From positions 1,094,323 through 1,158,322 of the forward strand of contig RPFO01000312.1 of the NCBI GenBank assembly GCA_009746045.1: a stretch of 64,000 nt of DNA, read 5' to 3'. Of the stretch, positions 1 to 56,719 are shown one piece after another; position 1 is the first letter of the stretch, and each line of letters begins with the position of its first letter. The translations under genes were made by a program, and so were the position numbers. The notes beneath the pieces were generated by a model, which was given only the letters and a program-made list of their open reading frames with translations, made no database searches and was not told the DNA's origin. The DNA comes from Mesostigma viride (lineage: Eukaryota > Streptophyta > Mesostigmatophyceae > Mesostigmatales > Mesostigmataceae).

Positions 1-6
1 AGGGCC

Positions 7-1878
7 ATGATGCGACGACACGCGCAAGGCCGGATCTCGGTAAGCACGGTGGTGGCCGAGCTGCAGGCCAAGGTCGACGCGCTGACCAAGGCCAAGTCGG
101 GTGAGTCGTCTGCCACAAGACAAGCGCGCCCGCAAGGCGGCCACGGTGCTAGCAGGAACCAAGGGGGGTCTCGCAACGCCTCATCGCATGATGCAACCCA
201 GGGTAACGCCGCTGGCGGCAACAAGGACGCTGCCGCTCCGCCGACGCGAGCTGGGGGGGGCACGTCCTCACAGACGGGTAGGACGGATGCGCGCAAATCG
301 GGCTGCTTCCTGTGCGGTCAGGATGGGCACATCAAACGTGATTGTCCCAAGGCGTGTAAGAAGTCACACCCGGCAACGGTCCGCACCCATCTGGCGGGGC
401 AGTGCCCAGCGCCGGGGGTGCACTTTGCGGACGTGGAGGACAAGAAGGTGGACGCGGGGGTGGTCATCATTCAGCCGACGGGCGAGGCGGGGGGACGTGA
501 AAGGGAGGATGGGGGATCGCAGGTTCAATACAGGGACGAGGACTTCTGGCGGCCAGCCGACGTGATGGCGTTGGACATCCACGCAGTTGGCGCGCGAGGG
601 AAGCAAGCACGTGCACCGCCGTCGTTTCAGGTGGGGCAGCCAAGTGAGACTGTGGGGCAGCTGCCTCAGTCCTTTCGCATGGCTCCCGCTCGGACCGGCT
701 CCACCCTGGAACACGACAATCCTGCTGGGGCAGAGCAGCGGCGCAGGTTGTTGCCATTATACCCTATGCCGTCGGTCGTGGACACGCCTGCATACACTCC
801 CCGGCAAGTGGTCGAGTGGTTCGGTCAGCGGGCCGTGGAGGTGCTCGGGTCGCATGCGTCAGAGGTACAGCGGTACGCTGACACAATGGACGCCCGTAGG
901 TTGCACAACGCTGAGACAGCCACATTTGTCGGGCATCGCCCTGCATCGGCTTCGGTAATCGTGGGTCATGTCGCTCATGGTGTCTTGGACAACGCGCAGC
1001 GGGCGTGCGTAGTGCCTAGGGCACCCACTGTCACCTCATATCCGGATGGCGAGCCAGCAATGGCGTTTCAGGCGCAGGGGCACGGGGAGCCCCTGAGCAA
1101 CGTGGTCTACAGTACTGACCATGAATTGGTCGTGAAACTGGACAGCGGGGCCCAGCCACTCGTTATCAGTGCTCGGCTGGCCCAGTTGCTCAACCTAACC
1201 AGGGAGAATGGCGGGCTGCGGGACAGTCATGTGTCCGTGGCGGGCTGGCAGGGCCCTGCCGCTAAACCCTTTGCCATGACTGCGGTCCAGGTAATGGTCA
1301 TCCTCAACCCGCTCAGGCCATCCGACATGGCCTGCATCCCTGTGAATGCCCTTGTGACCGAGCAGTCATCGTATGACGTGCTGGTCGGCATGGAGGTCAT
1401 GTTTCCCATGCGGCTCGAGGTACGCATGTGGGAAGGCCGCGCGGTGTACATCGTTGACAGAGACGGTGACGCCATGCGCCAAGCAAGCATCCCGGTGAGC
1501 TGCTACAGCTCGGACACTGGGGCAGTGCGTGTCTCGACGGTCAACCGGGTCGAGGCTGGCTCGCACGACGCGGTGGTGGAGGTACGGATGGGGGAGGTCA
1601 CGGCAGCTGGGGGGGCTGTGCGTGATAAGCATCGGCCGTGCATCCCAACAGCGCTGGTGGGACGGGCCTCATTGCACAGCACGTGGGCGGCGCGACAGCA
1701 GCCGCAAGCGCGGCAGGCCCTTTTGCGTCAGCACGTCACCAACGCGGTGCGGCAGCAACAACTCTCTCATCTCCCGCGGCAATCGCAGTCCAAGTGGCTG
1801 TCGCGACAACCGAAGGTAACTTCTGTGCCGATGTTGTGGCAGAGTCGCGGGTCTTGTCCGAAGGGGTTGTATTGCTAG
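7..1878 (+). CDS. Gag-protease polyprotein of the gypsy element (5' end outside window)
   Basis: Open from the window edge for 623 codons, so the first ATG may not be the true start. A CCHC zinc knuckle (C100, C103, H108, C113; CX2CX4HX4C) marks the nucleocapsid part of Gag, which binds genomic RNA. Residues 1-95 are low-complexity and basic. An aspartic-protease active site, DSGA, lies near residue 379 (codon GAC at 1141) and is followed by a retropepsin-like hydrophobic stretch, including a DVLVGMEVM segment near residues 457-465. The stop at 1876-1878 lies 10 bases inside the methyltransferase frame, which is offset by -1; both frames are open together from 1638 to 1878. Capsid homology is not obvious by eye. 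Confidence 0.8.
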   Translation: MMRRHAQGRISVSTVVAELQAKVDALTKAKSGESSATRQARPQGGHGASRNQGGSRNASSHDATQGNAAGGNKDAAAPPTRAGGGTSSQTGRTDARKSGCFLCGQDGHIKRDCPKACKKSHPATVRTHLAGQCPAPGVHFADVEDKKVDAGVVIIQPTGEAGGREREDGGSQVQYRDEDFWRPADVMALDIHAVGARGKQARAPPSFQVGQPSETVGQLPQSFRMAPARTGSTLEHDNPAGAEQRRRLLPLYPMPSVVDTPAYTPRQVVEWFGQRAVEVLGSHASEVQRYADTMDARRLHNAETATFVGHRPASASVIVGHVAHGVLDNAQRACVVPRAPTVTSYPDGEPAMAFQAQGHGEPLSNVVYSTDHELVVKLDSGAQPLVISARLAQLLNLTRENGGLRDSHVSVAGWQGPAAKPFAMTAVQVMVILNPLRPSDMACIPVNALVTEQSSYDVLVGMEVMFPMRLEVRMWEGRAVYIVDRDGDAMRQASIPVSCYSSDTGAVRVSTVNRVEAGSHDAVVEVRMGEVTAAGGAVRDKHRPCIPTALVGRASLHSTWAARQQPQARQALLRQHVTNAVRQQQLSHLPRQSQSKWLSRQPKVTSVPMLWQSRGSCPKGLYC

Positions 1879-2860
1879 AATTGTTTGCTGGGATGGGAGG
1901 GGGGCTGGCTGGCTTTCTCGCTGCAGGCGGTACGTGCCACACGTTGATCGCCGTAGAGCCGTCTCCTACCGCTCGGGCAGTGTATAGGCATCACTGTGCC
2001 CAGCTGTCTGCCCTGTATCCATCTCAGTTCCTCCGTCTGCGTGGACAGATCCGTTTGGGGAGTGCCCTCAGGATATCCGTGCATTGGGGAGGTTCATGTG
2101 CGAGGCCTTTTGAGGCGGCACAAGAGGATAGACCTCGTCCTCGCGGGCTGGGAATGTCAAGGGTTGAGTCAGGCCGGCGTAGGACGCGGGCTTGCGGATC
2201 CTAGGAGCGGGTTGTTTTGGGATCTGCTTCGAGTCGTTGGACTCTTGCAGCAGCTGCAGGACCAGCCACTAGCGTATCTTTTTGAGAACGTGGTGGCCGA
2301 CGACAGCCCTCACGAGGTAGTGAGGAAGGACTGGGCCCAGATCGTGGACATCTTAGGGGCACCAGTCACGTGCGACAATGCAGGATTGGGCGGGCTCACC
2401 CACAGGTACCGCGCATTCTGGACCAACCTTGCACTCACCACCACCATCCAGGCAGTGGTAGATGCGATCACACGACAGCACGACGGCATGCCCGCGGAGG
2501 TGGCGCTGCCACCACATTTGGTCACGCAGCGGTAGACGTCGCCGATCGGCACCCTTACGCGCCCGTCAATCACGTAGGTAAGCCTATGTGCGCTCTTCCC
2601 ACCTTGGTTAGTTACCAGGGGTCATCGGCCTACAGGGACCGGGGCAAGGGTTTGGTATGGGACACCGGTACGGGTTTGTTGGTGCAGCCGCCCGCTGAGT
2701 TTCGGGAGGTGAGCATGGGGTTCCATGTGGGGGCGTCCGCCGCTGAGGGGGTTTTAGAGGCCACTAGGTGGTCTCTCGTTGGGCAAGCCATGTCAGCCTT
2801 CCAGGTTGGGTATGTTCTGCGGGCCGCAATGCAAGTGCGCCAGGGTGGGGGAGATATCCC
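1866..2860 (+). pseudogene. C5-cytosine DNA methyltransferase domain embedded in pol (frameshifted)
   Basis: This lies between protease and RT and shows the ordered motifs of the DNMT/DCM superfamily. Motif I, LFAGMGG (1884-1901), binds S-adenosylmethionine. A DIRALG segment fits motif III (about 2065-2085, third frame). Motif IV is AGWECQGLSQAG, with catalytic Cys codon TGT at 2155-2157. Motif VI is ENV (2284-2292). HRYRAF fits motif VIII (about 2401-2418). After a variable target-recognition-like part (ALPTLVSYQGSSAYR), motif IX/X-like REVSMGF (about 2703) and GQAMS (about 2781-2795) follow. The usual Pro before the catalytic Cys is Glu (ECQ for PCQ). The domain is spread over three frames, so this copy cannot be translated intact as assembled. 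It would be expected to methylate cytosine in DNA; that is inferred from the family. Confidence 0.88.
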
Positions 2861-3247
2861 CACACCGCCACCGCCTGTCAGTGCCCACGCGGCTGGTGTC
2901 CGGCCAACAGCGTCCGGCGGCACTGGGTCGCCATGGAGATCGCGGCTGCTTCAACTATGGAGCGTTATCCTCATGACGTCCTTGTTGTCCAGCACGGTGT
3001 TCGCTGGAGCGCCCACCCTGCAGCAATCGGTCGGTCGCGCAGTCCGTGCCATTCAGCAGGTGAGCGTCACACCCGGTGTAGCCGCATTTTCCCTTTTCCA
3101 CGATGCCGCTGTCCGGGGGCCTTGTCTCGACAGTAGGAGTGCCGCAGTCGCAGATCCTGCTGCCTCTCACATATGGGCCATAGGTGAGCACCTCACCGCC
3201 ACGCAACGCAAGGCTATGGAGCACTGGTTGCATTCTGCACGCTCAGT

Positions 3248-4969
3248 TTCGCTTTCAGCAGTGAAGAACTAGGGTGCTACAACGGGGGCTGCATGGGGGT
3301 CCCACTAGATACGGATCAGCCCTTATTCAGGCGGCAGCATAGGCTGAGCTTGGCTGAGCTGGAATTCGTAGATGCTAACTGTCGAGAGCTAGAGGCAGCT
3401 GGGATCATCCGCGCTTCATCCTCCAGTTATGCAGCTGCCACGGTGGTCGCACCCAAGAAGGATACCATCACAGGCGAGTGGACAGGTATGCGCATGGCCA
3501 CTGACCTGCGTCAGCTGAACGCGCACACTCCTGTTGATAGGTACCCCATGCCTCGGGTCGATGATGTTTTGGATAAAATATCTCCCCAGGTCAAGTATGT
3601 GTCGTCGCTAGATTTGCGTAGCGGCTTCCATCAGATCAAGGTCGTAGAGGCAGATCAGCGCAAGCTGGCCTTTTGGGGTGGGACCCGTCTGTACGAGTGG
3701 GTTCGCATGCCATTCGGACATCGCAACGCTAGTGCGGTGTTCCAACGTGCCATGGACCAGGTGCTGGCAGGGTTGCCATTTGCAGCCTGCTACATAGACG
3801 ATGTCATTGTCTTTAGCGAGACATTTGACCAGCACTTAGCTCACCTCGATCAGGTTCGGATCGCCCTAGATAAGGCCAACCTGCGGCTGCACCCTGAAAA
3901 GTGCAAGTTCGCCCAACAGACCATAGGGTTTCTTGGTCATCAGATTGTACCAGGTGGCCGGACCCCTGAGGCAGCCAAAGTGGAAGCCATCAGCAACGCC
4001 GCAGTGCCCATCGACATCTCGGGGGTGCGCGCGTATCTCGGGCTAGCTGGCTATTATCGAGGATATATTCAGAATTTCAGCACCAAAGTCAAACCCCTGA
4101 CTGAGTTGTTGAAGAAGGGCAATGTCTGGGCGTGGGGTCCGGCTCAGCAGCGAGCCATCGATACCATCAAACAGGAACTGACTGCCGCTCCTATCCTACG
4201 CGCCCCCGACTATGCTCTGCCCTTCATTCTTTACACCGATTGGTCCAAGGTAGGCCTAGGGGCTGTGCTAGCACAAAAGGACGATGCGGGGCGCGAGCAT
4301 GTTATCGCGTACGCTAGTCGGAGTAACAACTCTGCCGAGAGTCGGTACTCTTCCTACGAGGGGGAAGCGTTAGCCGTTGTGTGGGCCATCAAGCACTTCA
4401 GGCCATATCTCTTTGGGCGGGTGTTCACACTTGTCACTGATCACCAGCCCTTATTGTGGTTGATGACCAGCGACAAACTCACGGGTAAGCTGGCCCGGTG
4501 GGCAATGATCATTCAGGAGTACCACCTGACAATCGTCCATCGGCCAGGTGTGGATCACTCCAACGCGGACGTCCTGTCCAGGTATGCTCTACCAACCACT
4601 GTTGACAACACTGGTGCGCGGGCCCTAGGGGCCGAGAGCTCGCCTGGGTCTGTGGTTTTTGTTAATGCTGCAGGCTTCGCTGACGCCGACGCCGAGGCAG
4701 ACTGGCGCGCAGTCGAGTATACAGTCGCAGACTTTGCGGCAAGCTGCAATGCAGTTCACCCTTCTCCCTTCACCCCTGCCGCTGGCCTCCTCGCGTTGGA
4801 GGAAGGTAATTCTCCGTCCTTTGACATTGACAATACCTTGGCACGATACCTAGCACTCCAGGTGGTGTTGGTTGGCCATCTCACAGTGGAATGCAACATG
4901 GGTGATGTGTGGCTCGATGGGCGTGTGTTGGAGCAGGTCCAAGGGATAGCTCTCACCCCACCCCGTTGA
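3248..4969 (+). CDS. Reverse transcriptase and RNase H of the gypsy element
   Basis: The frame can be followed upstream of the first ATG (3293) to about 3248, where VFAFSSEELG fits the usual lead-in to gypsy RT. The RT core has the LDLRSGFHQI block, the MPFGHRNA block (MPFGL-like) and the catalytic YIDDVIVFS (Asp-Asp codons at 3797-3802), followed by GFLGHQI. RNase H follows with FILYTDWSKVGLGAVLAQ (first Asp), a YEGEALAV Glu and a TDHQPLLWL Asp. The domain extends to HRPGVDHSNADVLSR, the normal end of gypsy RNase H. The frame ends at TGA 4967-4969 after a C-rich run, and integrase continues in another frame, so a one-base indel near 4960 is likely. Confidence 0.92.
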   Translation, partial: FAFSSEELGCYNGGCMGVPLDTDQPLFRRQHRLSLAELEFVDANCRELEAAGIIRASSSSYAAATVVAPKKDTITGEWTGMRMATDLRQLNAHTPVDRYPMPRVDDVLDKISPQVKYVSSLDLRSGFHQIKVVEADQRKLAFWGGTRLYEWVRMPFGHRNASAVFQRAMDQVLAGLPFAACYIDDVIVFSETFDQHLAHLDQVRIALDKANLRLHPEKCKFAQQTIGFLGHQIVPGGRTPEAAKVEAISNAAVPIDISGVRAYLGLAGYYRGYIQNFSTKVKPLTELLKKGNVWAWGPAQQRAIDTIKQELTAAPILRAPDYALPFILYTDWSKVGLGAVLAQKDDAGREHVIAYASRSNNSAESRYSSYEGEALAVVWAIKHFRPYLFGRVFTLVTDHQPLLWLMTSDKLTGKLARWAMIIQEYHLTIVHRPGVDHSNADVLSRYALPTTVDNTGARALGAESSPGSVVFVNAAGFADADAEADWRAVEYTVADFAASCNAVHPSPFTPAAGLLALEEGNSPSFDIDNTLARYLALQVVLVGHLTVECNMGDVWLDGRVLEQVQGIALTPPR

Positions 4970-6143
4970 TTGGTCCTCAGCCCAGCGTGACGCTGAGTTG
5001 AATAGGGTGCAACATAGGGCGGTCACCTACTCGTGGGATGCCGGGGTCCTCCACAAAATGATCGGCAAGCGCAAAGTGGTGGTGCCGCCGCCTCACAAGC
5101 GGGTCGCCATCGTCCAGCAAGCCCATGAGCGGTATGGCCACCTGGGTGGTAACCGCACTTTGGCGCTAGTGCGCGCCTCTTATTGGTGGAACGGCATGCG
5201 TGCCACAGTCGCGCAGGTCGTCGCTCGCTGCGCGCAGTGTGCCCGGGTGAAGGCCCGGTTCAATGTGGACCACGATGCGAAAGAATTGATGAGCCTACCC
5301 ATCAGAGGGCTCTTCTACCGCTGGCACGTAGACCTGTGTGGGCCCTTTGATGAAAGTGCAGATGGCCACAAGTATGTCATGGTGTGTGTCGAAAGTTTTA
5401 GCAAGTGGGTCGAGCTCATCCCCATTGCTGACAAGCAGGCCGCCACCACCGCCAAGCACTTCGCCGACATCATCGCCAGGTTTGGCGCCCCCGCGGAGGT
5501 GGTCACCGACCAGGGCGGGGAGTTTCGTGGGGAATTTCAGGAATTGTTGGATGCATGTCTCATTGATCACCGTCGCACTTCTCGCGAGCATCCTCAGGCC
5601 AATGGTTTGGCTGAGAGATTGGTGCAGACTGTCAAGCAGGCTTTGCGCAAGTGGAGCCTGCAGTCAGCATCATTCACTATGTGGGATCGTGAACTGGCGT
5701 GGATAGCCATGGGTTACCGAATGTCACCCCAGGAGTCGCTCGCCTGTTTCTCCCCGTATTTCCTGTTGTTTGGGCGCGCACCCTTGCTCCCCACGGAGGC
5801 GCAGAGTGCACACCCCACCCCTATGGCGTTTGACAACGCCAGTCAGTTTCTGGCTGAGGTGACCGCACGGGCGGCTACTTTCCGCAAGGTTATGCCCATC
5901 GCCATGAACAACTTGTTCATCGCCCAGCACCGAGATACCCTGCGCTACGCTCAGCGCCGGGGGGGCGCTTACATGGCCCGTCAGCTGCATTTTCGTCCGG
6001 GGCAGTTCGTCTTTCTCCGCACGCAGCTGACCGACACTCTTGACGTGACTGCGGGGCCGACCATCTTGCGGATCGTCGCCATCAAGCCATCTGGGGTCGC
6101 CATTTGGAGGGCGTCGACGGCAGTCGCACCACCGATAACGTAA
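4964..6143 (+). CDS. Integrase of the gypsy element
   Basis: The frame is open from about 4964 (DWSSAQRDAEL) before the annotated TTG at 4998. An N-terminal HHCC zinc finger is visible as HERYGHLGG followed by CAQCARVK. The DDE catalytic core shows WHVDLCGPF (first Asp), VVTDQGGEF (second Asp) and a Glu in ANGLAERLVQ. The C-terminal module contains FRPGQFVFL and IVAIKPSGVAI, like the GPF/Y region of Ty3 integrases. The frame closes at 6143, but the natural continuation (LEGVDGS, then NLSPC) is in the frame that leads into the PHD finger, so one base was probably gained or lost near 6100. The enzyme would insert the cDNA into host chromatin. Confidence 0.92.
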
Positions 6144-6436
6144 GCAACCTCAGTCCGTGTTCGTTGCCCAACTTATTGCCTGACCTCGCCCCGCACACGG
6201 CCAGGCGGGTCAAGGACGCACAGTGTCAGGTTTGCCATCGCGTAGACCAGGGGGATACCATGTTGCTGTGTGATCACTGTAATTGTGGGTGGCACATGCA
6301 CTGCTTGCAGCCAGCGCTCACCACCGTGCCAGCGGGCCAGTGGTTTTGCCCAGTTTGTGTCGCTGCCCGTTTCGCAACCAGTAGCGTCACCATTTCCTTA
6401 GCTGCTGTGGTGTTGGCACGGTCGCTGGCCATGTGA
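6104..6436 (+). CDS. PHD finger at the C-terminus of the integrase
   Basis: The first codons complete the integrase tail (EGVDGSRTTDNVSNLSPC). A textbook C4HC3 PHD finger follows at 6224-6358: CQVC, CDHC, a His-x-x-Cys in WHMHCL, then CPVC, with the usual Trp (GQWFCPVC) two residues before the last Cys pair. PHD fingers commonly read histone H3 tails, methylated or not at Lys4. At the end of an integrase the module would be placed like the chromodomain of chromoviruses, where it could steer integration. About 25 hydrophobic residues follow before the stop at 6434-6436. The methyltransferase, 3.5 kb upstream, belongs to the same element. Confidence 0.85.
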   Translation: MEGVDGSRTTDNVSNLSPCSLPNLLPDLAPHTARRVKDAQCQVCHRVDQGDTMLLCDHCNCGWHMHCLQPALTTVPAGQWFCPVCVAARFATSSVTISLAAVVLARSLAM

Positions 6437-6462
6437 GGAGCCATGAGAGCCAGCGAGGGGGG

Positions 6463-6603
6463 AATCATGGGACAGGTCCTCGCCCACCCCACCGGGCATG
6501 CAGTTAAGGCAGGCACGTCAGCTCAGCTCATTTGGGTTTTACCAAAGCTGAGCATGGCCAGCCGCCATGGTGGCGCCGGAGATTGTGGTACGCAGACGCG
6601 ACA
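6463..6603 (+). repeat. 141-bp direct repeat, copy A (candidate LTR start)
   Basis: By eye identical to 7768-7908. It lies just after the gypsy coding region and a purine-rich tract, where a 3' LTR should begin; the first TG is at 6468. Past the repeat the two copies diverge completely. It may be the start of a 3' LTR, with the second copy from a tandem or nested LTR, or simply a duplicated segment. Confidence 0.55.
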
Positions 6604-8768
6604 GCTGTCACGGACGCGAGCTATGTCATCCGGGCGCCCACTATGCACAAGACCGGTGACGTGCGCAAGGAATTTGTTTTCTGCGCATTTTCGACAAAGG
6701 CTAGTGACCGGGGGGGGGACACTAGCACTTGCAGCATAAGAGCGGACGAAAGTGCACGTGCGCGCGCGCCGGGCCAGGCACGGCTGGGCGCGCAGCACTG
6801 ACGTACTTGAGCGGACGGCAGCACAAGTGCGCAGCGTCGAGAGGATCATACGCGAGTTAGTGGACAGCTGGAGCTGGAGCTGGAGCTGGAGCTGGACTGC
6901 TGGACTTCAACAGCGCCGAGGCTATTGACAGGCCAGGTGTCTTTGTGGTGTAGAATAGCGGGTCAACGTTATGAGGACTGGACAGAAAATGGAAAAGGAC
7001 AATTTGCGGTGCGGAGCCAGATCGCTGGAATGAATGCGAAATCGCTGGCAGCCCTACAAAGGGATTTCTTCTAGAAAGGAAAGATTAGAAGCAATGTTTG
7101 CTGGGCCACTCACACGCAAGGTGTGAGCGTGCAGATTGTTTGAAGGATATTATGCTTCGACCTTGGTGGTCGTGACTCAATGCCGGACATTCCCAGGGAC
7201 AGAAATGCCGGAGCCTCTAGGAGATGAGATCGGCAACAGGGTAGCAATTTAGATTTGTCGGGATGCCTTCCTGCTTTTGTTGGCATGTGTGGTAGAAAGC
7301 CAGGACGGCAACTGGAATGCAGTTTCTATTTGCATGGTTCAGGCAGCAAGGTAGTTTGGGCATTCCTGGCTGGACTGACAAGTGTGGCGTGTGTCATGCG
7401 TGTGGCATGACGAATGGTTTGGTTCATAGTCGAAGAGGACTCTCACGTAGCGTGTAGTCTCTTCGAGTCTCTCGTTAGTGGCCTTCGTGTTTCTCCCTTT
7501 CCTTGGGAGCAAGGCCGGTAGCATGTCATGGAGCGCTGCCTAACTGCGGGCTCGTGAGCATGGAGTGCATCGATATTGAGACTATCAACGTGTTGTAATT
7601 GTATTAACCGTTTCTCAATAAATTCCGCATGTGCGGCTTCATCATCAGACTGTGCAAAGTGTGTGTTGTGAAAACATTGTTCTATAGCAGGGGAGGCAAA
7701 AGCATTAAGGTAGTCATCAGGCACGAGGGACAGTTCCTTGTCCTCGGCTGAGAACCCTCCTTTCGTTAATCATGGGACAGGTCCTCGCCCACCCCACCGG
7801 GCATGCAGTTAAGGCAGGCACGTCAGCTCAGCTCATTTGGGTTTTACCAAAGCTGAGCATGGCCAGCCGCCATGGTGGCGCCGGAGATTGTGGTACGCAG
7901 ACGCGACACGGGTCTCTTAGTCCGGACCAAAGTGGCCGCCGCCCGGGCCTGCGGCCGCAACTAGCTGCAACTGCTACTGTAGCGGCTTGTCGGGCGTGGT
8001 CATCGACGCCTACAGATTCGGTAGTTTCCGGGTCACCTTGCGATGGCACCCAGTATTTACGATCACCGCCCCAAACTTCGGCGTCGTAACTTAACGCGGT
8101 ATGACTGTCCACTGTACACATACGGCGATCCAAACTTGAGGCGTGAACGTACTGCATGTGTGTTCGCGAAGGCAACAAGACGGTTCCAAGTCACGTGAGC
8201 GATGTCGCTGAACGACGTCGGAACTAAAACACTTGCAGGTATGAAGGAACCAAAAGGCTGGCAATCCATTGATAAATAAATTGACAGACATCCAGCGTCT
8301 CCCCTACGTGAGTAGTAGTACGTGGCCAGTGACCAGTTGCTATCGCCCTGGTTGTTTTCAATGGGGATTCTCCCATTCGACCCCGTCTAGGTACCTTGCT
8401 ACCTTGGTAGCTCTGCCAGGATAGCTGCTGTGGTAAACATGCAAGTCACTCCGGCCATGCATCCGTCGCCGTTGCCGTTAACGCCGCTTAACTCTCTATC
8501 TTATGCCACGCACAGAAATCAGCAGCAACATGCGGGCACGGCCGTGTGTAGGCATTCAGCAAGTGCTGAACGGTAATCTGGGGAGACTTGACAACGCTGA
8601 TAGGGCAAGGAACAGGTGCGAACACAGGTTTGAAGTTAAGAGTGGAAAACGCAAACGGATGGTACGGATATATGGCTCAATGTCAAGTTCTCGCGGCACG
8701 TATTATAGTCAAAGTTTGAGTTTTTCTCCCGTCGATGGTTTGAGCCAGGCGTATGACCGGTAGGACGC
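6604..8768. other. Non-coding stretch after the retrotransposon
   Basis: Apart from the copy B repeat, no convincing gene is visible. It contains a short (GGAGCT)n run near 6868-6897 and an AATAAA near 7617, which would suit LTR or UTR sequence. Short ORFs here have no recognisable domain. Confidence 0.5.
7768..7908 (+). repeat. 141-bp direct repeat, copy B
   Basis: Second copy of 6463-6603, starting 1,305 bases later and also preceded by aatca. If the LTR starts TGGGACAGG, this copy would begin a second LTR directly abutting the end of the first. The other LTR boundary cannot be fixed from this window. Confidence 0.55.
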
Positions 8769-8830
8769 ATGAAGGATCAAGTGTCTCGGCTGAATGAGGG
8801 ACGCCTTGCCTTTGGCTCGGGCGGGGGTCC

Positions 8831-8861
<31 letters not shown>

Positions 8862-11833
8862 AGGCTGGCCCATGCTGCGTTGGTGAGCACGTATTTCAAC
8901 CCGGACGAACACTGGCAAGGCCCGGAGGTGGCCCACCGTGCGGTCTTCGGCTACGGGTATCTCACCTGGGAATGGGAGCAAGGCATCCGCAGCTTCTTCC
9001 ACCCCATGCTGTTTGCCGCCCTGTACAAACTGCTGGCACTTGCACGACTCGACTCCCCTCGCGTGCTCGCCCTCGCGCCGCGGTTGCTGCAGGCGGTGGC
9101 CGCGGCTGTGGGGGACCTGTACACGTGCAAGCTCGCCCTGCAGGTGTCGGAGCGTCCAGCTGTCGCCACGTGGGCGGCCGTCTTCCAGGCTTGCAGCTGG
9201 TTCCTCTCCTTCTGCATCGTGCGCCCCTTGTCCAACAGCTCCGAGGCCGTGCTGACCGTGGTGGCGCTCTCCCATTGGCTGCGCGCCACGCACGGGCCAG
9301 CCCCGCCCCCACCCCCGCCCCCGAAACATGAAACAGCCCCTGTCATGCCACCCGCATTGAGTGCGCCGTCAGCATCCAACGCGTCCAGGGACCTCCGCTT
9401 GGCCCTATTTCTGGCATCCGTGTCGTTTGTGGTGCGGCCGACGAGTGCCATCCTGTGGGCACCCCTCGCCATGTGGCGCATCGTCACGCTGCCATCTGTC
9501 CCCGCCCGTGCGCGCTTCGTCTTTCTCAACGTGCTCCCTTGCGCGCTGCCCCCCCTGCTGGCCTGCGCGGTGGCCGACCGTTGGTTCTACGGTACCTGGG
9601 TGTTCCCCCCCTGGCGCTTTGCCCGCTTCAGCATGGCGGGCGCCAGCTGGTACGGCACCCACCCGTGGCACTGGTACGCCACCAACGGCCTGCCCTCCAT
9701 GGCCGGCACGACGGCTCCCCTTGCGGTCGCCAGCATGCTGACCACGCTAGGGCACAGGATGCACCCAATGGGGAGGGGCCTGTGCGCGCGATGGAGGGGC
9801 CGGTACTCGCCGCTGCCGGAAGAGGAGCAAGGCGGCGCATGCGACGGTGGACGCGTGGCGCCGAGCGCAGGCGCCTGCTCCGCTAGGTGTGCAGGTGCCA
9901 GCACACGGGTGCATGCTGGTGCTGGTGGTGCAGACGCCAGCACACGGGCATGCCAAGTAGGCACGGAGCCGGTCACGGTTCCGGTTCCCACCGCCGCTAC
10001 GGGGGAGCCGGTCAGGAAGGGCAGCTGTGGCGATGGAGCGACGTCAGCTCGCCGGTACGGCGCAGGGGCAGGGCTGGCCGGTGCATCGTTGGTGCCCCGG
10101 GAAGTCTCACGGGGTGAGGGGGCCAAGGCAGGTGTGGTGGTGGAGAAAAATGACAGGGGCAAGGGCAGGAGCAAGAGCAAGGAAAAGAGCAAGGGCAGTG
10201 GCAAGAGCAAGGGTGACGGTGAGGGCGAGGGGGGGGTGATGGGGAGGGTAGCATGGACCGTGGGTCCCTGGTGGGAGTGGCGCCCAGCCAGTGTCACCTG
10301 GGGCCCACCCCCGCGGTGCCGTGCGACAGTGATGGACGCGGAGCACTTACCCTGTCGCTACTCATCCTGTGGGTGGTGGCGGCTTATTCTTGCGTCAGCC
10401 ACAAGGAGTTCCGTTTCGTGCTCCCGTTGCTGCCGTTGATGCACGTGCACGCGGCGATGGCCATGGTTGCGCTGGACGCGGCCCTGACAGGTGGTAGGAG
10501 CAGCAGTGGCCCTGATGGCAGTGGCGGTGACACGCAGGATGCCAGGGTGGGCAGGGGGAAGGCAGCGGGTGGCCGGCCTGCGAAAGGGAGGTCTGTCATA
10601 GATGCGGGTGCCAGTGGCGTGGGTGATGACGAGGCCGGTGGGGGTAACGAGGGGCTCCCCGTGCCTGCCAGGTGGCGTGGTCGCGCCCGCGTGGCCCTCC
10701 TGTTTGTCCTGCTCGCGCCGCAGGTGCTCGCGGGCGTCTATTTTAGTGCCGTACACCAGCGGGGCGTGACGGATGCCATGGCGTGGGTGGCAGCCGAGGC
10801 GTCGGCCTGTCGCGTTCGGTCGCTGGACATGCTCATGCCCTGCCACGCGACGCCCTTCTACTCACACACGCACGCGCGCGTGCCCATGCGCATCCTGGAC
10901 TGCTCGCCGCCCCGCTTGCCCCCGCCCTGCTTCCGCCCGCTGGCGCCAGCTGGCATGCTGGTGGGCAGCCAGGGGTGTACCTCTGGCCCTGCCCCCACGT
11001 TCGGCGAGGTCGACACGCTTGCCGGTGTGGCTAACCCATCGAGCAACCTATCGAGGGAATGTGTCAAGTGGGTGGATCCGCGCGACGGCATCGAACGATG
11101 GGTGCCGCCTGCCGCCGCCTGCAACACTGGGGCAGCACCAGGGAGTGGGTGCCAGCTGTCAGGTGCACCCGCGGGAGGAGCCCCGTCCACCGGGGCGACC
11201 GTGGCGACCGAGGTATCAGAGAGAGGCGCAGGGGACGCCTTGCTGGTAGTTGGGGACCATGATGCTGGCAGTTGTGCTGGGGAGGGTGGTGAGAATGACC
11301 GTACCCAAGCGCGACTGGGAGCTGATGAAGCGGACGCGTTTATGGTGGACCCGCTCGGGTTCCTCTGCGCGCGGTACTACGACCTGTCGGCGGACGTCAC
11401 ACCCACAGTAGGGGGCTGTGTGGTTGAATCGTCTTCCCAGTGCGCCTGGCATGCTGATTCTAGTGCCGCAGTTGAACCCTTTTGTAAAGGTGTGGACAAG
11501 TCTTTATTGGACCCCATGCATGGTGACTCAACTTGGTCGCATGGTGACGCCGTTTGCCTTCCAAATGCCACCCACATGAGGATGCCAGCTTTATGCCCGG
11601 ACCCAGACATGCACGAAAGGCATAGCTCAAGGTACTGGGGGCCACGTGACCGGCTGCTGCCGTCCCATTTCATGATGTTCAGCTCGTTGCTCCCGCAACT
11701 AGAGGTGTTCCTGGTCGCCAATGACTACCATCCAGTCGCCCGCTTCTTCCATGCTCACTTCGCAGTTGACCGGGGACTACAGGCAGAGGTAATTGTGTTC
11801 ACTCGGGGTCAATGTGAGCTCAGCAAGATTTGA
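8769..11833 (+). CDS. PIGB: GPI mannosyltransferase 3 (PIGB/GPI10-like), frame change in the middle
   Basis: This ER-membrane GT22 enzyme adds the third mannose to the GPI anchor precursor from dolichol-phosphate-mannose. The first part (from ATG 8769) has the luminal-loop motif TYFNPDEHWQ at residues 41-50, whose acidic pair is the GT-C catalytic site, then hydrophobic helices and the GTHPWHWY block that is diagnostic of PIGB. The second part, in another frame from about 10341, has SHKEFRF with its hydrophobic helix, LMPCHATPFYSH, PMRILDCSPP, DEADAFMVDP and a C-terminal LPSHFMMF...LLPQLEVFL. Between them, about 9770-10340 is Lys/Gly/Ser-rich or repetitive and not conserved. It could be an intron (possible GT donors at 9803 or 9887, acceptor near 10330, phases compatible) or an insertion with a frameshift. 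Low-complexity insertions also lengthen the second half. Confidence 0.8.
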
Positions 11834-12230
11834 GATCCCCATCAAGACAAGTTGTCCTCCTTGTACCAGTGTTCTTATGTATTACATTAAGCAATGTTTG
11901 CCTCTTATATAGGTGTATTCTTAGGCCTTTGCTTAGGACTTCTACGCTAAGCGAGACAACGAATGTTGTAGAACCGGCCATGGACCCCAAGTAGCTGCAC
12001 TTCGTCATATTTGATCAATACTCTCAGGTATGGCATTCTGTGAAATTGTTTATCTGTCTCAGTTTCCTTGCTCATGACACATTCATGATGCCATCACAGA
12101 ACTGAGATCTCAAAAGCAAGCGCCATCTATATTGCTCACGCATATCTGTGGCCTCTGGACGATGGGGCAGCCTTACCATAGCCGCATCCGCTTTTCTTCT
12201 TGTTCAGGTGCACCCACAGTTGAGCATGCA
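11834..12230. other. Downstream flank of PIGB
   Basis: AT-richer, non-coding by eye, and probably the 3' UTR and flank. I see no other feature before the hairpin tag at 12231. Confidence 0.4.
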
Positions 12231-12266: not shown

Positions 12267-13504
12267 TGATGATGATGATGATGATGGTGGTGGTGATGGT
12301 GATGGTGATGGTGATGGTGATGGTGATGGTGATGGTGATGGTGATGGTGATGGTGATGGTGATGGTGATGGTGATGGTGATGGTGATGGTGATGGTGATG
12401 GTGATGGTGATGGTGATGGTGATGGTGATGGTGATGGTGATGGTGATGGTGATGGTGATGGTGATGGTGATGGTGATGGTGATGGTGATGGTGATGGTGA
12501 TGGTGATGGTGATGGTGATGGTGATGGTGATGGTGATGGTGATGGTGATGGTGATGGTGATGGTGATGGTGATGGTGATGGTGATGGTGATGGTGATGGT
12601 GATGGTGATGGTGATGGTGATGGTGATGGTGATGGTGATGGTGATGGTGATGGTGATGGTGATGGTGATGGTGATGGTGATGGTGATGGTGATGGTGATG
12701 GTGATGGTGATGGTGATGGTGATGGTGATGGTGATGGTGATGGTGATGGTGATGGTGATGGTGATGGTGATGGTGATGGTGATGGTGATGGTGATGGTGA
12801 TGGTGATGGTGATGGTGATGGTGATGGTGATGGTGATGGTGATGGTCACGGTCACGGTCACGGTCACGGTCACGGTCACGGTCACGGTCACGGTCACGGT
12901 CACGGTCACGGTCACGGTCACGGTCACGGTCACGGTCACGGTCACGGTCACGGTCACGGTCACGGTCACGGTCACGGTCACGGTCACGGTCACGGTCACG
13001 GTCACGGTCACGGTCACGGTCACGGTCACGGTCACGGTCACGGTCACGGTCACGGTCACGGTCACGGTCACGGTCACGGTCACGGTCACGGTCACGGTCA
13101 CGGTCACGGTCACGGTCACGGTCACGGTCACGGTCACGGTCACGGTCACGGTCACGGTCACGGTCACGGTCACGGTCACGGTCACGGTCACGGTCACGGT
13201 CACGGTCACGGTCACGGTCACGGTCACGGTCACGGTCACGGTCACGGTCACGGTCACGGTCACGGTCACGGTCACGGTCACGGTCACGGTCACGGTCACG
13301 GTCACGGTCACGGTCACGGTCACGGTCACGGTCACGGTCACGGTCACGGTCACGGTCACGGTCACGGTCACGGTCACGGTCACGGTCACGGTCACGGTCA
13401 CGGTCACGGTCACGGTCACGGTGACGGTGACGGTGACGGTGACGGTGACGGTGACGGTGACGGCGACGGCGACGGTGACGGTGACGGTGACGGTGACGGT
13501 GACG

Positions 13505-13594
<90 letters not shown>
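12267..13594. repeat. Compound hexanucleotide array GGTGAT / GGTCAC / GGTGAC / GGTGAG
   Basis: Starts as ATG triplets, then (GATGGT)n to 12846, (CACGGT)n 12847-13422, (GACGGT)n to 13506 with a short GGCGAC interruption, and (GAGGGT)n to 13594. Each block differs from the next by one or two bases in the same register, so single variants seem to have spread by local expansion. The long open frames across it (Val-Met, Val-Thr or Arg-Asp dipeptides) are products of the repeat, not genes. Confidence 0.97.
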
Positions 13595-16578: not shown

Positions 16579-17630
16579 ATCCATCCATCCATCCATCCAT
16601 CCATCCATCCATCCACCCATCCATCCATCTATCCATCCATCCATCCATCCATCCATCCATCCATCCATCCATCCATCCATCCATCCATCCATCCATCCAT
16701 CCATCCATCCATCCATCCATCCATCCATCCATCCATCCATCCATCCATCCATCCATCCATCCATCCATCCATCCATCCATCCATCCATCCACCCATCGAT
16801 CCATCCATCCATCCATATCCATCCATCCATCCATCCATCCATCCATCCATCCATCCATCCATCCATCCATCCATCCATCCATCCATCCATCCATCCATCC
16901 ATCCATCCATCCATCCATCCATCCATCCATCCATCCATCCATCCATCCATCCATCCATCCATCCATCCATCCATCCATCCATCCATCCATCCATCCATCC
17001 ATCCATCCATCCATCCATCCATCCATCCATCCATCCATCCATCCATCCATCCATCCATCCATCCATCCATCCATCCATCCATCCATCCATCCATCCATCC
17101 ATCCATCCATCCATCCATCCATCCATCCATCCATCCATCCATCCATCCATCCATCCATCCATCCATCCATCCATCCATCCATCCATCCATCCATCCATCC
17201 ATCCATCCATCCATCCATCCATCCATCCATCCATCCATCCATCCATCCATCCATCCATCCATCCATCCATCCATCCATCCATCCATCCATCCATCCATCC
17301 ATCCATCCATCCATCCATCCATCCATCCATCCATCCATCCATCCATCCATCCATCCATCCATCCATCCATCCATCCATCCATCCATCCAATGATCCATCC
17401 ATCCATCCATCCATCCATCCATCCATCCATCCATCCATCCATCCATCCATCCATCCATCCATCCATCCATCCATCCATCCATCCATCCATCCATCCATCC
17501 ATCCATCCATCCATCCATCCATCCATCCATCCATCCATCCATCCATCCATCCATCCATCCATCCATCCATCCATCCATCCATCCATCCATCCATCCATCC
17601 ATCCATCCATCCATCCATCCATCCATCCAT

Positions 17631-17697
<67 letters not shown>

Positions 17698-17977
17698 TCC
17701 AGCCATCCAGCCATCCAGCCATCCATCCATCCATCCATCCATCCATCCATCCATCCATCCATCCATCCATCCATCCATCCATCCATCCATCCATCCATCC
17801 ATCCATCCATCCATCCATCCATCCATCCATCCATCCATCCATCCATCCATCCATCCGGCATCCATCCATCCATCCATCCATCCATCCATCCATCCATCCA
17901 TCCATCCATCCATCCATCCATCCATCCATCCATCCATCCATCCATCCATCCATCCATCCATCCATCCATCCATCCAT

Positions 17978-18048
<71 letters not shown>

Positions 18049-18282
18049 TCCATCCATCCATCCATCCATCCATCCATCCATCCATCCATCCATCCATCCA
18101 TCCATCCATCCATCCATCCATCCATCCATCCATCCATCCATCCATCCATCCATCCATCCATCCATCCATCCATCCATCCATCCATCCATCCATCCATCCA
18201 TCCATCCATCCATCCATCCATCCATCCATCCATCCATCCATCCATCCATCCATCCATCCATCCATCCATCCATCCATCCATC
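16579..18282. repeat. 1.7-kb (ATCC)n array with CCAG sub-blocks
   Basis: Tetranucleotide array with few interruptions (about 16791-16820, 17389 and 17857) and two blocks where the unit became CCAG (17634-17720 and 17979-18047). Frames through it give Pro-Ser-Ile-His or Met-Asp-Gly-Trp repeats. It lies directly 5' of the LINE hairpin, where other copies (39.5, 58.9, 29.9 kb) have only two to four units. Confidence 0.97.
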
Positions 18283-31761: not shown

Positions 31762-34700
31762 TTAGTCAAACTTCTCCTGCCCGTCGGCCTTGCGCAGCTG
31801 GCCCAGGTTGGTAGGCGCCTGCGTGCCCACCACCTTGGAGCAGCCGTACTGGCTAACGTCCACGCCGGTCGCCTTCTCCCCTTCCACCTGCCCCTGGATC
31901 CACTCAAATGTCTTTGCCAGGCCGTCCTGTGGGGAGTCACAACACGGGTGTGCAGTCAATAAGGCGCGTGGTGATCAGTTAGAGACAAGTAGCACCGTGC
32001 GGTCACTGGCGAGCAACACTCAATGCCAAGAGCTTTGTAAAACGGTGAAACCAAGAGCTATTTAGGGCAGCACGTTGTGTCGCAAAGCTGGGAAGCACAT
32101 AGCAACAAAAGCAATAGCCAAAACGAAGGGCGTTGCTGTCTACAAGAATAACCAGTGGCAGGTGCCCCCCTGCTGCCACGCACCTGGAGCTTAATGCTGG
32201 GTGCCCAGCCCAGCTTCTCCTTGATGAGTGTGTTGTCGCTGTTGCGCCCGCGCACGCCCTCGGGGCCTGGGATGTGGCGGATCTTCATCTGGCGGCCGGT
32301 CAGCTTCATCACGATGCCAGCCATCTCGTTCATCGACACCATCTCGTCGCTGCCCAGGTTGACCGGCTCCTTGAAGTCGCTCTTGGTGAGGCTGGTAGGG
32401 GACAGTAGGAGGCATACAGAGAGTCATGGAGATATTGGGTTAGTTTAGTTTAGTTTAGTTTAGTTGAGGTTAGGCTAGTTTAGTCTAGTTTAGTCTAGTT
32501 TAGTCTAGTTTAGTCTAGTTTAGTTAAGTTAAGTTAAGTTAAGTTTAGTCTAGTTTAGACTAGTCTAGGCTAGTCTAGGCTAGTCTAGTTTAGGCTAGGC
32601 TAGTTTAGGCTAGGCTAGTTTAGGCGAGGCTAGTCTAGTCTAGTCTAGTCTAGTCTAGTTTAGTCTAGTTTAGTCTAGTTTAGTCTAGTTTAGGCTAGTT
32701 TAGGCTAGGCTAGGCTAGGCTAGGCTAGGCTAGGCTAGGCTAGGCTAGGCTAGGCTAGGCTAGGCTAGGCTAGGCTAGGCTAGGCTAGGCTAGGCTAGGC
32801 TAGGCTAGGCTAGGCTAGGCTAGGCTAGGCTAGGCTAGGCTAGGCTAGGCTAGGCTAGGCTAGGCTAGGCTAGGCTAGGCTAGGCTAGGCTAGGCTAGGC
32901 TAGGCTAGGCTAGGCTAGGCTAGGCTAGGCTAGGCTAGGCTAGGCTAGGCTAGGCTAGGCTAGGCTAGGCTAGGCTAGGCTAGGCTAGGCTAGGCTAGGC
33001 TAGGCTAGGCTAGGCTAGGCTAGGCTAGGCTAGGCTAGGCTAGGCTAGGCTAGGCTAGGCTAGGCTAGGCTAGGCTAGGCTAGGCTAGGCTAGGCTAGGC
33101 TAGGCTAGGCTAGGCTAGGCTAGGCTAGGCTGGGCTGGGCTGGGCTGGGCTGGGCTAGGCTGGGCTAGGCTGGGCAAGGCAAGTTTAGTCTAGTCTAGTC
33201 TAGTCTAGTCCAGTCTAGTCTAGTCCAGTCCAGTCCAGTCCAGTCTAGTCCAGTCCAGTCCAGTCCAGTCCAGTCCAGTCCAGTCCAGTCCAGTCCAGTC
33301 CAGTCCAGTCCAGTCCAGTCCAGTCCAGTCCAGTCCAGTCCAGTCCAGTCCAGTCCAGTCCAGTCCAGTCCAGTCCAGTCCAGTCCAGTCCAGTCCAGTC
33401 CAGTCCAGTCCAGTCCAGTCCAGTCCAGTCCAGTCCAGTCCAGTCCAGTCCAGTCCAGTCCAGTCCAGTCCAGTCCAGTCCAGTCCAGTCCAGTCCAGTC
33501 CAGTCCAGTCCAGTCCAGTCCAGTCCAGCCCAGCCCAGCCCAGCCCAGCCCAGCCCAGCCGAGCCCAGCCGAGCCCAGCCGAGCCCAGCCGAGTCGAGCC
33601 GAGCCGAGCCGAGCCGAGCCGAGCCGAGCCGAGTCGAGCCGAGTCGAGCCGAGTCGAGCCGAGCCGAGTCGAGTCGAGTCGAGTCGAGTCGAGTCGGGTC
33701 CAGTCGAGTCAGTCGAGTCGAGCCAGTCGAGTCGAGTCGAGTCGAGTCGAGTCGAGTCGAGTCGAGTCGAGTCGAGTCGAGTCGAGTCGAGTCGAGTCGA
33801 GTCGAGTCGAGTCGAGTCGAGTCGAGTCGAGTCGAGTCGAGTCGAGTCGAGTCGAGTCGAGTCGAGTCGAGTCGAGTCGAGTCGAGTCGAGTCGAGTCGA
33901 GTCGAGTCGAGTCGAGTCGAGTCGAGTCGAGTCGAGTCGAGTCGAGTCTGACTAGGTAGGGTAGGGTAGGGTAGGGTAGGGTAGGGTAGGGTAGGGTAGG
34001 GTAGGGTAGGGTAGGGTAGGGTAGGGTAGGGTAGGGTAGGGTAGGGTAGGGTAGGGTAGGGTAGGGTAGGGTAGGGTAGGGTAGGGTAGGGTAGGGTAGG
34101 GTAGGGTAGGGTAGGGTAGGGTAGGGTAGGGTAGGGTAGGGTAGGGTAGGGTAGGGTAGGGTAGGGTAGGGTAGGGTAGGGTAGGGTAGGGTTGAGTAGG
34201 GTAGGGTAGGGTAGGGTAGGGTAGGGTAGGGTAGGGTAGGGTAGGGTAGGGTAGGGTAGGGTAGGGTAGGGTAGGGTAGGGTAGGGTAGGGTAGGGTAGG
34301 GTAGGGTAGGGTAGGGTAGGGTAGGGTAGGGTAGGGTAGGGTAGGGTAGGGTAGGGTAGGGTAGGGTAGGGTAGGGTAGGGTAGGGTAGGGTAGGGTAGG
34401 GTAGGGTAGGGTAGGGTAGGGTAGGGTAGGGTAGGGTAGGGTAGGGTAGTATGTTAGGCGAGAGTTCCCCCCCCCCCCCCCCCCCCAAAGGAATGCACCC
34501 ATCCAAAAGTAAAAAAATTAGCGCAGTCACCAAACAGGCAAAATCTGCCCTGACCGTGCTGTAGTACAACCAGAGTAAAGCCCAGGTGTCTGAGAAGTCC
34601 ATTATTACGGGAAATGAGGGAGGTGCTGAAATATTACTGGCTGGGTGCAAGAACAGCAATTTTCTGCATGAGGGAAATGATCACTAAGCACAGCAACCCA

Positions 34701-49889: not shown

Positions 49890-50432
49890 GGTGGGTGGGT
49901 GGGTGGGTGGGTGGGTGGGTGGGTGGGTGGGTGGGTGGTGGGTGGGTGGGTGGGTGGGTGGGTGGGTGGGTGGGTGGGTGGGTGGGTGGGTGGGTGGGTG
50001 GGTGGGTGGGTGGGTGGGTGGGTGGGTGGGTGGGTGGGTGGGTGGGTGGGTGGGTGGGTGGGTGGGTGGGTGGGTGGGTGGGTGGGTGGGTGGGTGGGTG
50101 GGTGGGTGGGTGGGTGGGTGGGTGGGTGGGTGGGTGGGTGGTGGGTGGGTGGGTGGGTGGGTGTGGTGGGTGGGTGGGTGGGTGGGTGGGTGGGTGGGTG
50201 GGTGGGTGGGTGGGTGGGTGGGTGGGTGGTGGGTGGTGGGTGGGTGGGTGGGTGGGTGGGTGGGTGGGTGGGTGGGTGGGTGGGTGGGTGGGTGGGTGGG
50301 TGGGTGGGTGGGTGGGTGGGTGGGTGGGTGGGTGGGTGGGTGGGTGGGTGGGTGGGTGGGTGGGTGGGTGGGTGGGTGGGTGGGTGGGTGGGTGGGTGGG
50401 TGGGTGGGTGGGTGGGTGGGTGGGTGGGTGGG
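49890..50432. repeat. (GGGT)n array with GGCA flanks
   Basis: About 135 tetramer units with a few TGG/GTGTGG slips; GGCA-type units flank both sides (49850-49875 and 50488-50532). It is probably in an intron of the minus-strand gene, so the transcript carries CCCA. The G-rich plus strand is strongly G-quadruplex prone. Confidence 0.97.

Positions 50433-56368: not shown

Positions 56369-56719
<351 letters not shown>

Follow-up and report, generated by a model that had tools for sequence, protein, structure and literature searches.

The left part of a 64,000-nucleotide stretch of Mesostigma viride DNA (contig RPFO01000312.1, positions 1,094,323 to 1,158,322; this whole stretch is hereafter called the window) contains a retrotransposon whose pol gene carries a C5-cytosine DNA methyltransferase (DNMT). 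We found that this element is almost certainly a diverged, frame-broken Ty3/gypsy copy of the long terminal repeat (LTR) type. Taken as a whole, the evidence is probably best explained by membership of a green-algal gypsy clade that combines a DNMT, possibly used for self-methylation, with a PHD finger that may serve in targeting. An earlier note, made from the sequence alone, had claimed a C5 DNMT between the protease and the reverse transcriptase (RT) of a Ty3/gypsy pol gene in a green alga. The claim was confirmed by Pfam, by a profile built from relatives and by the identity of the host.

The methyltransferase domain occupies 1860..2807 on the forward strand, as do all parts of the element described here. 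Pfam family PF00145 was detected above its cut-off in a frame-1 piece (1957-2532, E 2.6e-8). We also built a profile of 322 model positions from relatives only, with the window excluded as a source. Model positions 1-317 were matched in order across 1860-2807, which agrees to about 55 bases with the span of 1866-2860 given in the earlier note. The match is divided among four frame pieces: 1860-2033 (frame 3, 49 bits), 2027-2086 (frame 2, 7 bits, weak alone), 2077-2526 (frame 1, 162 bits), and 2529-2807 (frame 3, 90 bits). The top score in 20 mononucleotide shuffles of window positions 1-8000 was 7.0 bits, so the piece at 2027-2086 scores no better than shuffled sequence and is placed by its position in the order. 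Motif I starts at about 1872, motif IV reads GWECQ with the catalytic Cys codon present at 2155-2157, and motifs VI (ENV) and VIII (RYRAFW) follow within the same span. Motif IV is E-C-Q rather than P-C-Q/N. The domain is real and close to complete. In a frame map from the profile and tblastn, pol changes frame about seven times if the weak piece is included, and four of these changes lie at or in the DNMT; the broken frames described in the earlier note are borne out by these pieces.

The remaining coding parts are those of a gypsy element. The 3' part of gag and the protease share a frame (frame 1, 1..1878) with a CCHC zinc knuckle (301-351) and a retropepsin-like protease (1138-1416); gag runs on upstream of the window, where the adjoining stretch (L134) matches the gag of the Mesostigma protein P0001. 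Downstream of the DNMT are the RT and RNase H (frame 2, 3188..4969; Pfam match 3188-4966, profile match 3377-4549) and a DDE integrase with an H2C2 zinc-binding domain (frame 3, 4950..6143; Pfam match 4950-6140, profile match 5121-5777). The order of protease, DNMT, and RT is the one previously claimed, and the full order is protease, DNMT, RT-RNase H, and integrase, with the gypsy-type RT-RNase H and the DDE integrase after the RT that define Ty3/gypsy elements. Pol ends, on its C-terminal side, with a PHD finger (frame 2, 6221..6358; PF00628, E 4.8e-10, in the frame 6044-6433). The earlier note mentioned neither this finger nor the terminal repeats or target duplication.

The element is 10,778 bp long, starting 2,870 bp before the window and ending at 7908, and has the layout A1-coding-B1-A2-B2. 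Repeat A1 (G000:C1391:1091453-1092614, between 2,870 and about 1,710 bp before the start of the window) pairs with A2 (6606..7771) at 97.7% identity; their alignment of 1173 columns has 9 mismatches and 7 gap openings. By this divergence, the insertion is fairly young but rich in indels. The 141-bp repeat B1 (6463..6603), just 3' of a polypurine-tract-like stretch read from the sequence (6452..6464), is identical to B2 (7768..7908), which forms the right end of the element. The ends, TGTCACGG...CGACA, are of the TG...CA type and are flanked by a 4-bp target site duplication, CGGG, directly before A1 and at 7909..7912. Three further Mesostigma elements have the A-coding-B-A-B layout with their own duplications, CTGG and GTTG found by script and CTTG read by eye, the script's start pattern being unsuited to that last family, where it reported no match. 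The 4-bp duplication was present in 4/4 such elements. Two ordinary LTRs, one at each end, were not what we found, the layout being A-coding-B-A-B in all four elements with a target duplication. A DIRS-type element with a tyrosine recombinase was ruled out by the integrase (rve and H2C2) and the target duplications. A chromovirus was also ruled out, as the PHD finger occupies the place after the integrase and no chromodomain was detected by Pfam.

We then compared the window copy with its relatives in the same genome. P0001 is a EukProt protein whose label, Mesvir1, we take to denote M. viride. A search with it gave 859 candidate places and 89 rows, of which 50 covered the protease-DNMT part and 39 the gag part. 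All 50 scored protease-DNMT places were 99-100% identical, which identifies the host as Mesostigma viride or a very close strain; identity in the gag rows was 43-98%. None of the 50 places contained a stop within the match, and in 29 the match reached residue 861 or 880. Some of these 50 may be one locus on two haplotype contigs. Four places (C133, C224, C1563, and C1515) were fetched to view whole elements. Protease, DNMT, RT, integrase, and PHD finger lie in a single 2,074-residue frame in C133 and C224, so that the host assembly does hold the open copies for which the earlier note had proposed a search. C1563 has a single 2,092-residue frame reaching the integrase, and the frame of C1515 is broken. 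The C133 element has B plus A on both sides (1,282 bp, 100% identical) without a clear target duplication; no such repeat pair was found for C224 within the stretch fetched. Protein identity between the window and C133 copies was 75% in the DNMT and 86-87% in the RT, which places the window copy, by sequence, in a sister family of the P0001 and C133 copies. In a third family (C2100), gag and protease share one frame and DNMT, RT, integrase, and PHD finger a second of 1,642 residues, the two overlapping by 190 bases. The frame change from protease to DNMT in the window has the same direction and place, so it may be normal there, while the remaining frame changes look like damage or assembly error.

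Since about four of the seven or so frame changes fall in or at the DNMT, the domain might be decaying baggage in the window lineage. We consider this very unlikely. The sister copies keep the DNMT open, and there were no indel columns in the DNMT among the 20 best-matching host copies (best matches, not a random set). Gap openings (7) are also nearly as frequent as mismatches (9) between the repeats A1 and A2, and decay by indels or an error of assembly thus suffices to explain the broken frames. The change from protease to DNMT may be normal, as it has the same direction in the C2100 family, ahead of an open 1,642-residue frame. The DNMT is under purifying selection.

A separate host or bacterial methylase gene could also have landed by chance in one copy, or been joined to it by an assembly artefact, as genes of the Dcm type are present in the assembly and many of its small contigs match methylases. 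The probability of this is negligible: the DNMT has the same position in the three Mesostigma families examined, in the 50 P0001 places, and in proteins of other algae, and we rejected a chance gene or artefact on the basis of those 50 places and the C2100 family. The insertion of a separate gene into this one copy, which the earlier note had named as a refuting outcome, was likewise not what we found. Sister copies without the DNMT, the other refuting outcome named there, were not seen, but all searches that found copies used the DNMT region. As for the other methylase matches of the assembly, PF00145 was detected on many small contigs in frames of about 300-390 residues. These matches are possibly bacterial contamination or imported genes, and the two examined (L166 and L167) are Dcm-like. 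Another PF00145 place (L165) holds a gene with a DNMT1-like motif by our own reading, and at a further one (L164) the gypsy-DNMT profile found nothing.

To characterize the DNMT, we compared it with known methyltransferases. Its nearest family by profile, predicted fold, and tree was DNMT3, in comparisons that did not include algal host DNMT3s. The profile search, which covered 57 chains with neither DNMT1 nor DNMT5 among them, gave 86 bits for DNMT3 and 28 bits for DNMT2. On this sequence and model evidence, the window DNMT is classed as DNMT3-like. The catalytic domains of animal DNMT3A, DNMT3B, and DNMT3C are the best match by sequence profile, fold, and tree, but identity is about 25%, most gypsy forms have Glu-Cys in motif IV, and no ADD or PWWP domain was listed in the gypsy proteins scanned by Pfam. 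The catalytic residues are conserved across gypsy DNMTs. Motif IV was Glu-Cys in 33 of 50 rows, Pro-Cys in 11, and other or missing in 6. Known C5 methyltransferases have Pro before this Cys, and DNA cytosine methyltransferase activity of the Glu-Cys form is a prediction from sequence. NCBIfam matched mainly dcm, under its cut-off in the member shown.

We also considered phages as the nearest source of the DNMT and rejected this, as the gypsy DNMTs group with DNMT3A/3C and not with 16 viral relatives, which were chosen by similarity and called phage without typing. At least 294 relatives of the gypsy DNMT were found on viral contigs, and the best 80, which were kept, were 23-41% identical; no RT match was found in the open reading frames of these 80. 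Phage enzymes are nevertheless not very distant, since PHROG phage methylase families give good matches to the gypsy DNMTs (phrog_116, best E 1.4e-28). Scans of viral contigs with the window's own DNMT and RT gave nothing useful.

Elements of this kind were found to be widespread in green algae. Three protein searches, one of which listed the best 120 of 1,974 matches, yielded 140 proteins, 57 of them with a DNMT by our own profile among the matches listed: 49 of 123 in the first set (all 49 already in round one, with four seeds) and 8 of 17 in the second. No protein named for Klebsormidium was among the matches listed. The named streptophyte hosts are M. viride and Closterium sp. NIES-54, and PF00145 was detected in both. 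The chlorophyte hosts, detected by our own profile only, are Tetraselmis striata (presumably the meaning of the label Tetstr1), Haematococcus lacustris, and Pleodorina starrii. The placement of the DNMT in the 49 proteins falls into two types. In type A (17 proteins, 2 of them without an RT in the gene model) it precedes the RT, as in the window, and in type B (32 proteins) it lies between RNase H and integrase. Intact recent relatives in the Mesostigma genome and in other green algae suggest that the DNMT did not insert by chance but belongs lastingly to a widespread family.

Several side observations were made among these proteins. The contig CADCWO010000201.1, filed under a cyanobacterial metagenome-assembled genome, carries an algal-looking gypsy-DNMT-PHD element (L081) with gag-protease-DNMT and RT-integrase-PHD in one frame and one stop between them. 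The contig is 9,285 bp long with identical first and last 127 bp, and is probably algal contamination. Three gypsy Pol proteins (P0086, P0088, and P0111) have a Dam-type N6-adenine methylase (PF05869) between protease and RT. Their PHD finger follows RNase H, and in the two proteins that extend to the integrase it precedes that domain. Their RTs fall outside the C5-DNMT clade, and they are a convergent methylase-plus-PHD gypsy lineage. P0119 has a PHD finger before the integrase and about 490 residues without a Pfam match between protease and RT, the place of the methylase elsewhere. In the gypsy protein P0073, a viral fusion glycoprotein family (PF24664) is matched ahead of the protease.

We constructed an RT tree of 74 rows, which included 26 of the 74 available DNMT-less proteins, chosen by us; P0001 and P0003, which have a DNMT and no RT, were omitted. 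The 47 DNMT proteins with an RT, the window, P0047, and P0078 formed a single clade (100/99), the reading frames of P0047 and P0078 ending before the expected place of the DNMT. No DNMT was detected by profile in the other 24 rows. All type B proteins with P0078 formed one clade (100/99) nested in type A. When the host families and L081 were added, the clade kept a support of 99 (SH-aLRT, the approximate likelihood ratio test) and the three Mesostigma families grouped together at 100. The DNMT tree proposed in the earlier note was run in part, with DNMT3 rows, and placed the window DNMT in one gypsy clade beside DNMT3A/3C. These trees used 28 of the 57 gypsy DNMT proteins and were rooted with DNMT3 and M.HhaI. 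The gypsy DNMTs formed one clade (100/100) apart from DNMT3A/3C in all three runs, and DNMT3A/3C were nearest among the rows used (96/88, 98/93, and 94/91). RT and DNMT distances correlated (r 0.82; 0 of 2000 permutations as high), with agreement at r 0.90 in type A and weaker, at r 0.55, in type B. The DNMT is co-inherited with the RT in these elements. The window RT is close to those of Tetraselmis and P0099 (99/95), yet the DNMTs of these group with P0053.

A single gypsy DNMT clade and a single clade of carrier RTs fit one capture and one move within Pol. On balance we favor a history in which all green-algal gypsy DNMTs, including that of Klebsormidium, go back to one capture of a DNMT3-like domain at about the time when chlorophytes and streptophytes separated or earlier, or owe their spread to later horizontal transfer, with the DNMT-PHD pairing kept and one move in Pol. 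Two or more captures, in which types A and B each took a related DNMT3-like host gene, are a less likely history that still deserves weight. The positions in Pol differ between the types, the A/B split is deepest within the gypsy-DNMT clade in one rooted tree, and two captures of Dnmt3 are reported for the DIRS elements of dinoflagellates (PMC5890265). The trees also disagree about which position came first, as the RT tree nests B in A and the second rooted DNMT tree nests A in B. Against separate captures are the single DNMT clade apart from DNMT3A/3C (100/100), in a tree without green-algal host DNMT3s, and the single clade of carrier RTs. The earlier note's suggestion of a possible independent acquisition in the window element was not supported. 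Both trees put it in a clade of chlorophyte and streptophyte elements, and its repeats are arranged as PMC5890265 describes for the element of Klebsormidium.

The Pol of this clade has a DNMT3-like enzyme and usually a PHD finger too. The solved PHD fingers nearest to that of the element are those of BAZ2B (E 1e-15), CHD4, and WSTF. The fingers of BAZ2B and CHD4 read histone H3.

We propose that the DNMT would be produced in constant proportion to RT and integrase and enter the particle together with these enzymes, since it has no frame of its own in frame-keeping copies and adjoins RT-RNase H in both types. It might then methylate the new double-stranded complementary DNA (cDNA), or the insertion site soon after integration. 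No simpler use suggests itself for a DNMT of the de novo type beside an RT, and methylation of cDNA or insertion is the likeliest role, to be held tentatively. The PHD finger could place or hold the integration complex on chromatin via histone H3. A new copy might thus arrive already marked as silent or self, at lower cost to the host or hidden from defences against unmethylated foreign DNA. Packaging, substrate, timing, benefit, and the role of the PHD finger are all inferred.

Several observations weigh against this explanation as a whole. The window copy cannot encode the enzyme as its sequence reads, its motif IV has Glu where the DNMT3A and HhaI compared here have Pro, and in 21 of the 50 P0001 places the match ends at residue 817-818. 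PF00145 misses several proteins that our own profile alone detects, among them P0077 (Haematococcus), P0096 (Tetraselmis), and P0115 (Pleodorina), and P0115 lacks the catalytic Cys. The nearest solved PHD fingers are not decisive for the ligand. CpG depletion, a long-term trace that such methylation might leave, was not found: the observed/expected ratio of the element's coding part was 0.84, compared with 0.85 for the flank (7909-12000) and 0.73 for window positions 14000-64000, and two further copies gave 0.82 and 0.86. Young copies would not yet show depletion, so CpG content does not decide the matter. The DNMT of the Klebsormidium element gave no detectable methylation in yeast, a result its authors call inconclusive (PMC5890265, in the part available).

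This lack of depletion is also compatible with a DNMT that acts on RNA, either the genomic RNA or a tRNA primer, or whose main task in the particle is to bind nucleic acid. Some C5 methyltransferases act on RNA, and RNA methylation was raised for the LINE-type (long interspersed nuclear element) case in the accessible text of PMC5890265. We regard this as improbable, as profile, fold, and tree all point to DNMT3, which acts on DNA, as the nearest family, with DNMT2 far off (28 against 86 bits), and the conserved catalytic residues would be needless for mere binding.

Elsewhere in the window, an Alg9-like mannosyltransferase gene (PF03901) lies beside the element in two frames (8757-11833, forward strand), and another RT fragment was found at 59196-60218 (reverse strand; PF00078, E 1.8e-9). 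Long, simple tandem arrays with units of 4-10 bp occur at 12292-13592, 16579-18282, 32441-34449, 49890-50432, and 56369-56719. Self-comparison revealed a further array, about 1.1 kb in length, upstream of the window (L134 2982-4141).

Retroelements that carry the silencing enzyme of their host are a puzzle. Here the trait marks a clade whose named hosts are five green algae from two phyla, and a single unicellular streptophyte has dozens of copies that are nearly identical. The gain from methylating DNA is testable in Mesostigma, where intact and broken, young and old copies can be compared for methylation, expression, and spread. If the single early capture is true, self-methylation would be an ancient, stable strategy of retroelements and not a rare accident. 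We found no DNMT- or PHD-bearing gypsy element reported for Mesostigma or chlorophytes in the titles and abstract starts of the open-licence literature.

Chromoviruses carry a chromatin-reading chromodomain at the C-terminal end of the integrase and are not known to have a DNMT. They share with the Mesostigma element a chromatin reader after the integrase, which in Mesostigma is a PHD finger and not a chromodomain. Among the DNMT-bearing retroelements previously described, as independent oddities, from dinoflagellates and one charophyte (PMC5890265, in the part available), SymbioDIRS-Dnmt3 of dinoflagellates likewise has a Dnmt3-class DNMT in Pol and split repeats, and its enzyme methylates CpG de novo in yeast. 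However, it has a tyrosine recombinase and a non-green host, whereas the Mesostigma element has a DDE integrase. SymbioLINE-Dnmt also carries a C5 DNMT, but it is a LINE with an orphan DNMT in its first open reading frame (ORF1) and is CpG-depleted. The same text, citing earlier work, mentions DIRS elements with Dam-type adenine methylases, again a retroelement's own DNA methylase but an unrelated enzyme. The ChloroDNMT class of chlorophytes and charophytes is likewise a green-lineage C5 DNMT, but often has a PWWP domain (PMC12344493, in the part available); that part names Copia and DIRS families, not Gypsy, for reported cases of DNMT retroelements.

The closest system is KnitGypsy-Dnmt3 of Klebsormidium nitens (de Mendoza et al. 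2018, PMC5890265). In the available part of that paper, this element, also from a streptophyte alga, has a Dnmt3-class DNMT under purifying selection in a gypsy Pol reading frame, and its Fig. 4 legend describes DIRS-like repeats in the order A-coding-B-A-B with gypsy domains, all as in Mesostigma. It was filed as Gypsy in print despite the same exception to two ordinary LTRs. That part mentions no PHD finger, target duplication, or chlorophyte relatives; the Mesostigma element has the first two. By analogy of description rather than of sequence, KnitGypsy likely belongs to the same clade, and Klebsormidium therefore need not have acquired its DNMT element type independently. New here are the Mesostigma host, the breadth, the evidence for one capture and one later move in Pol, and the pairing of DNMT and PHD finger. 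The kind was already known from Klebsormidium, and the window element is an ordinary member of a remarkable kind.

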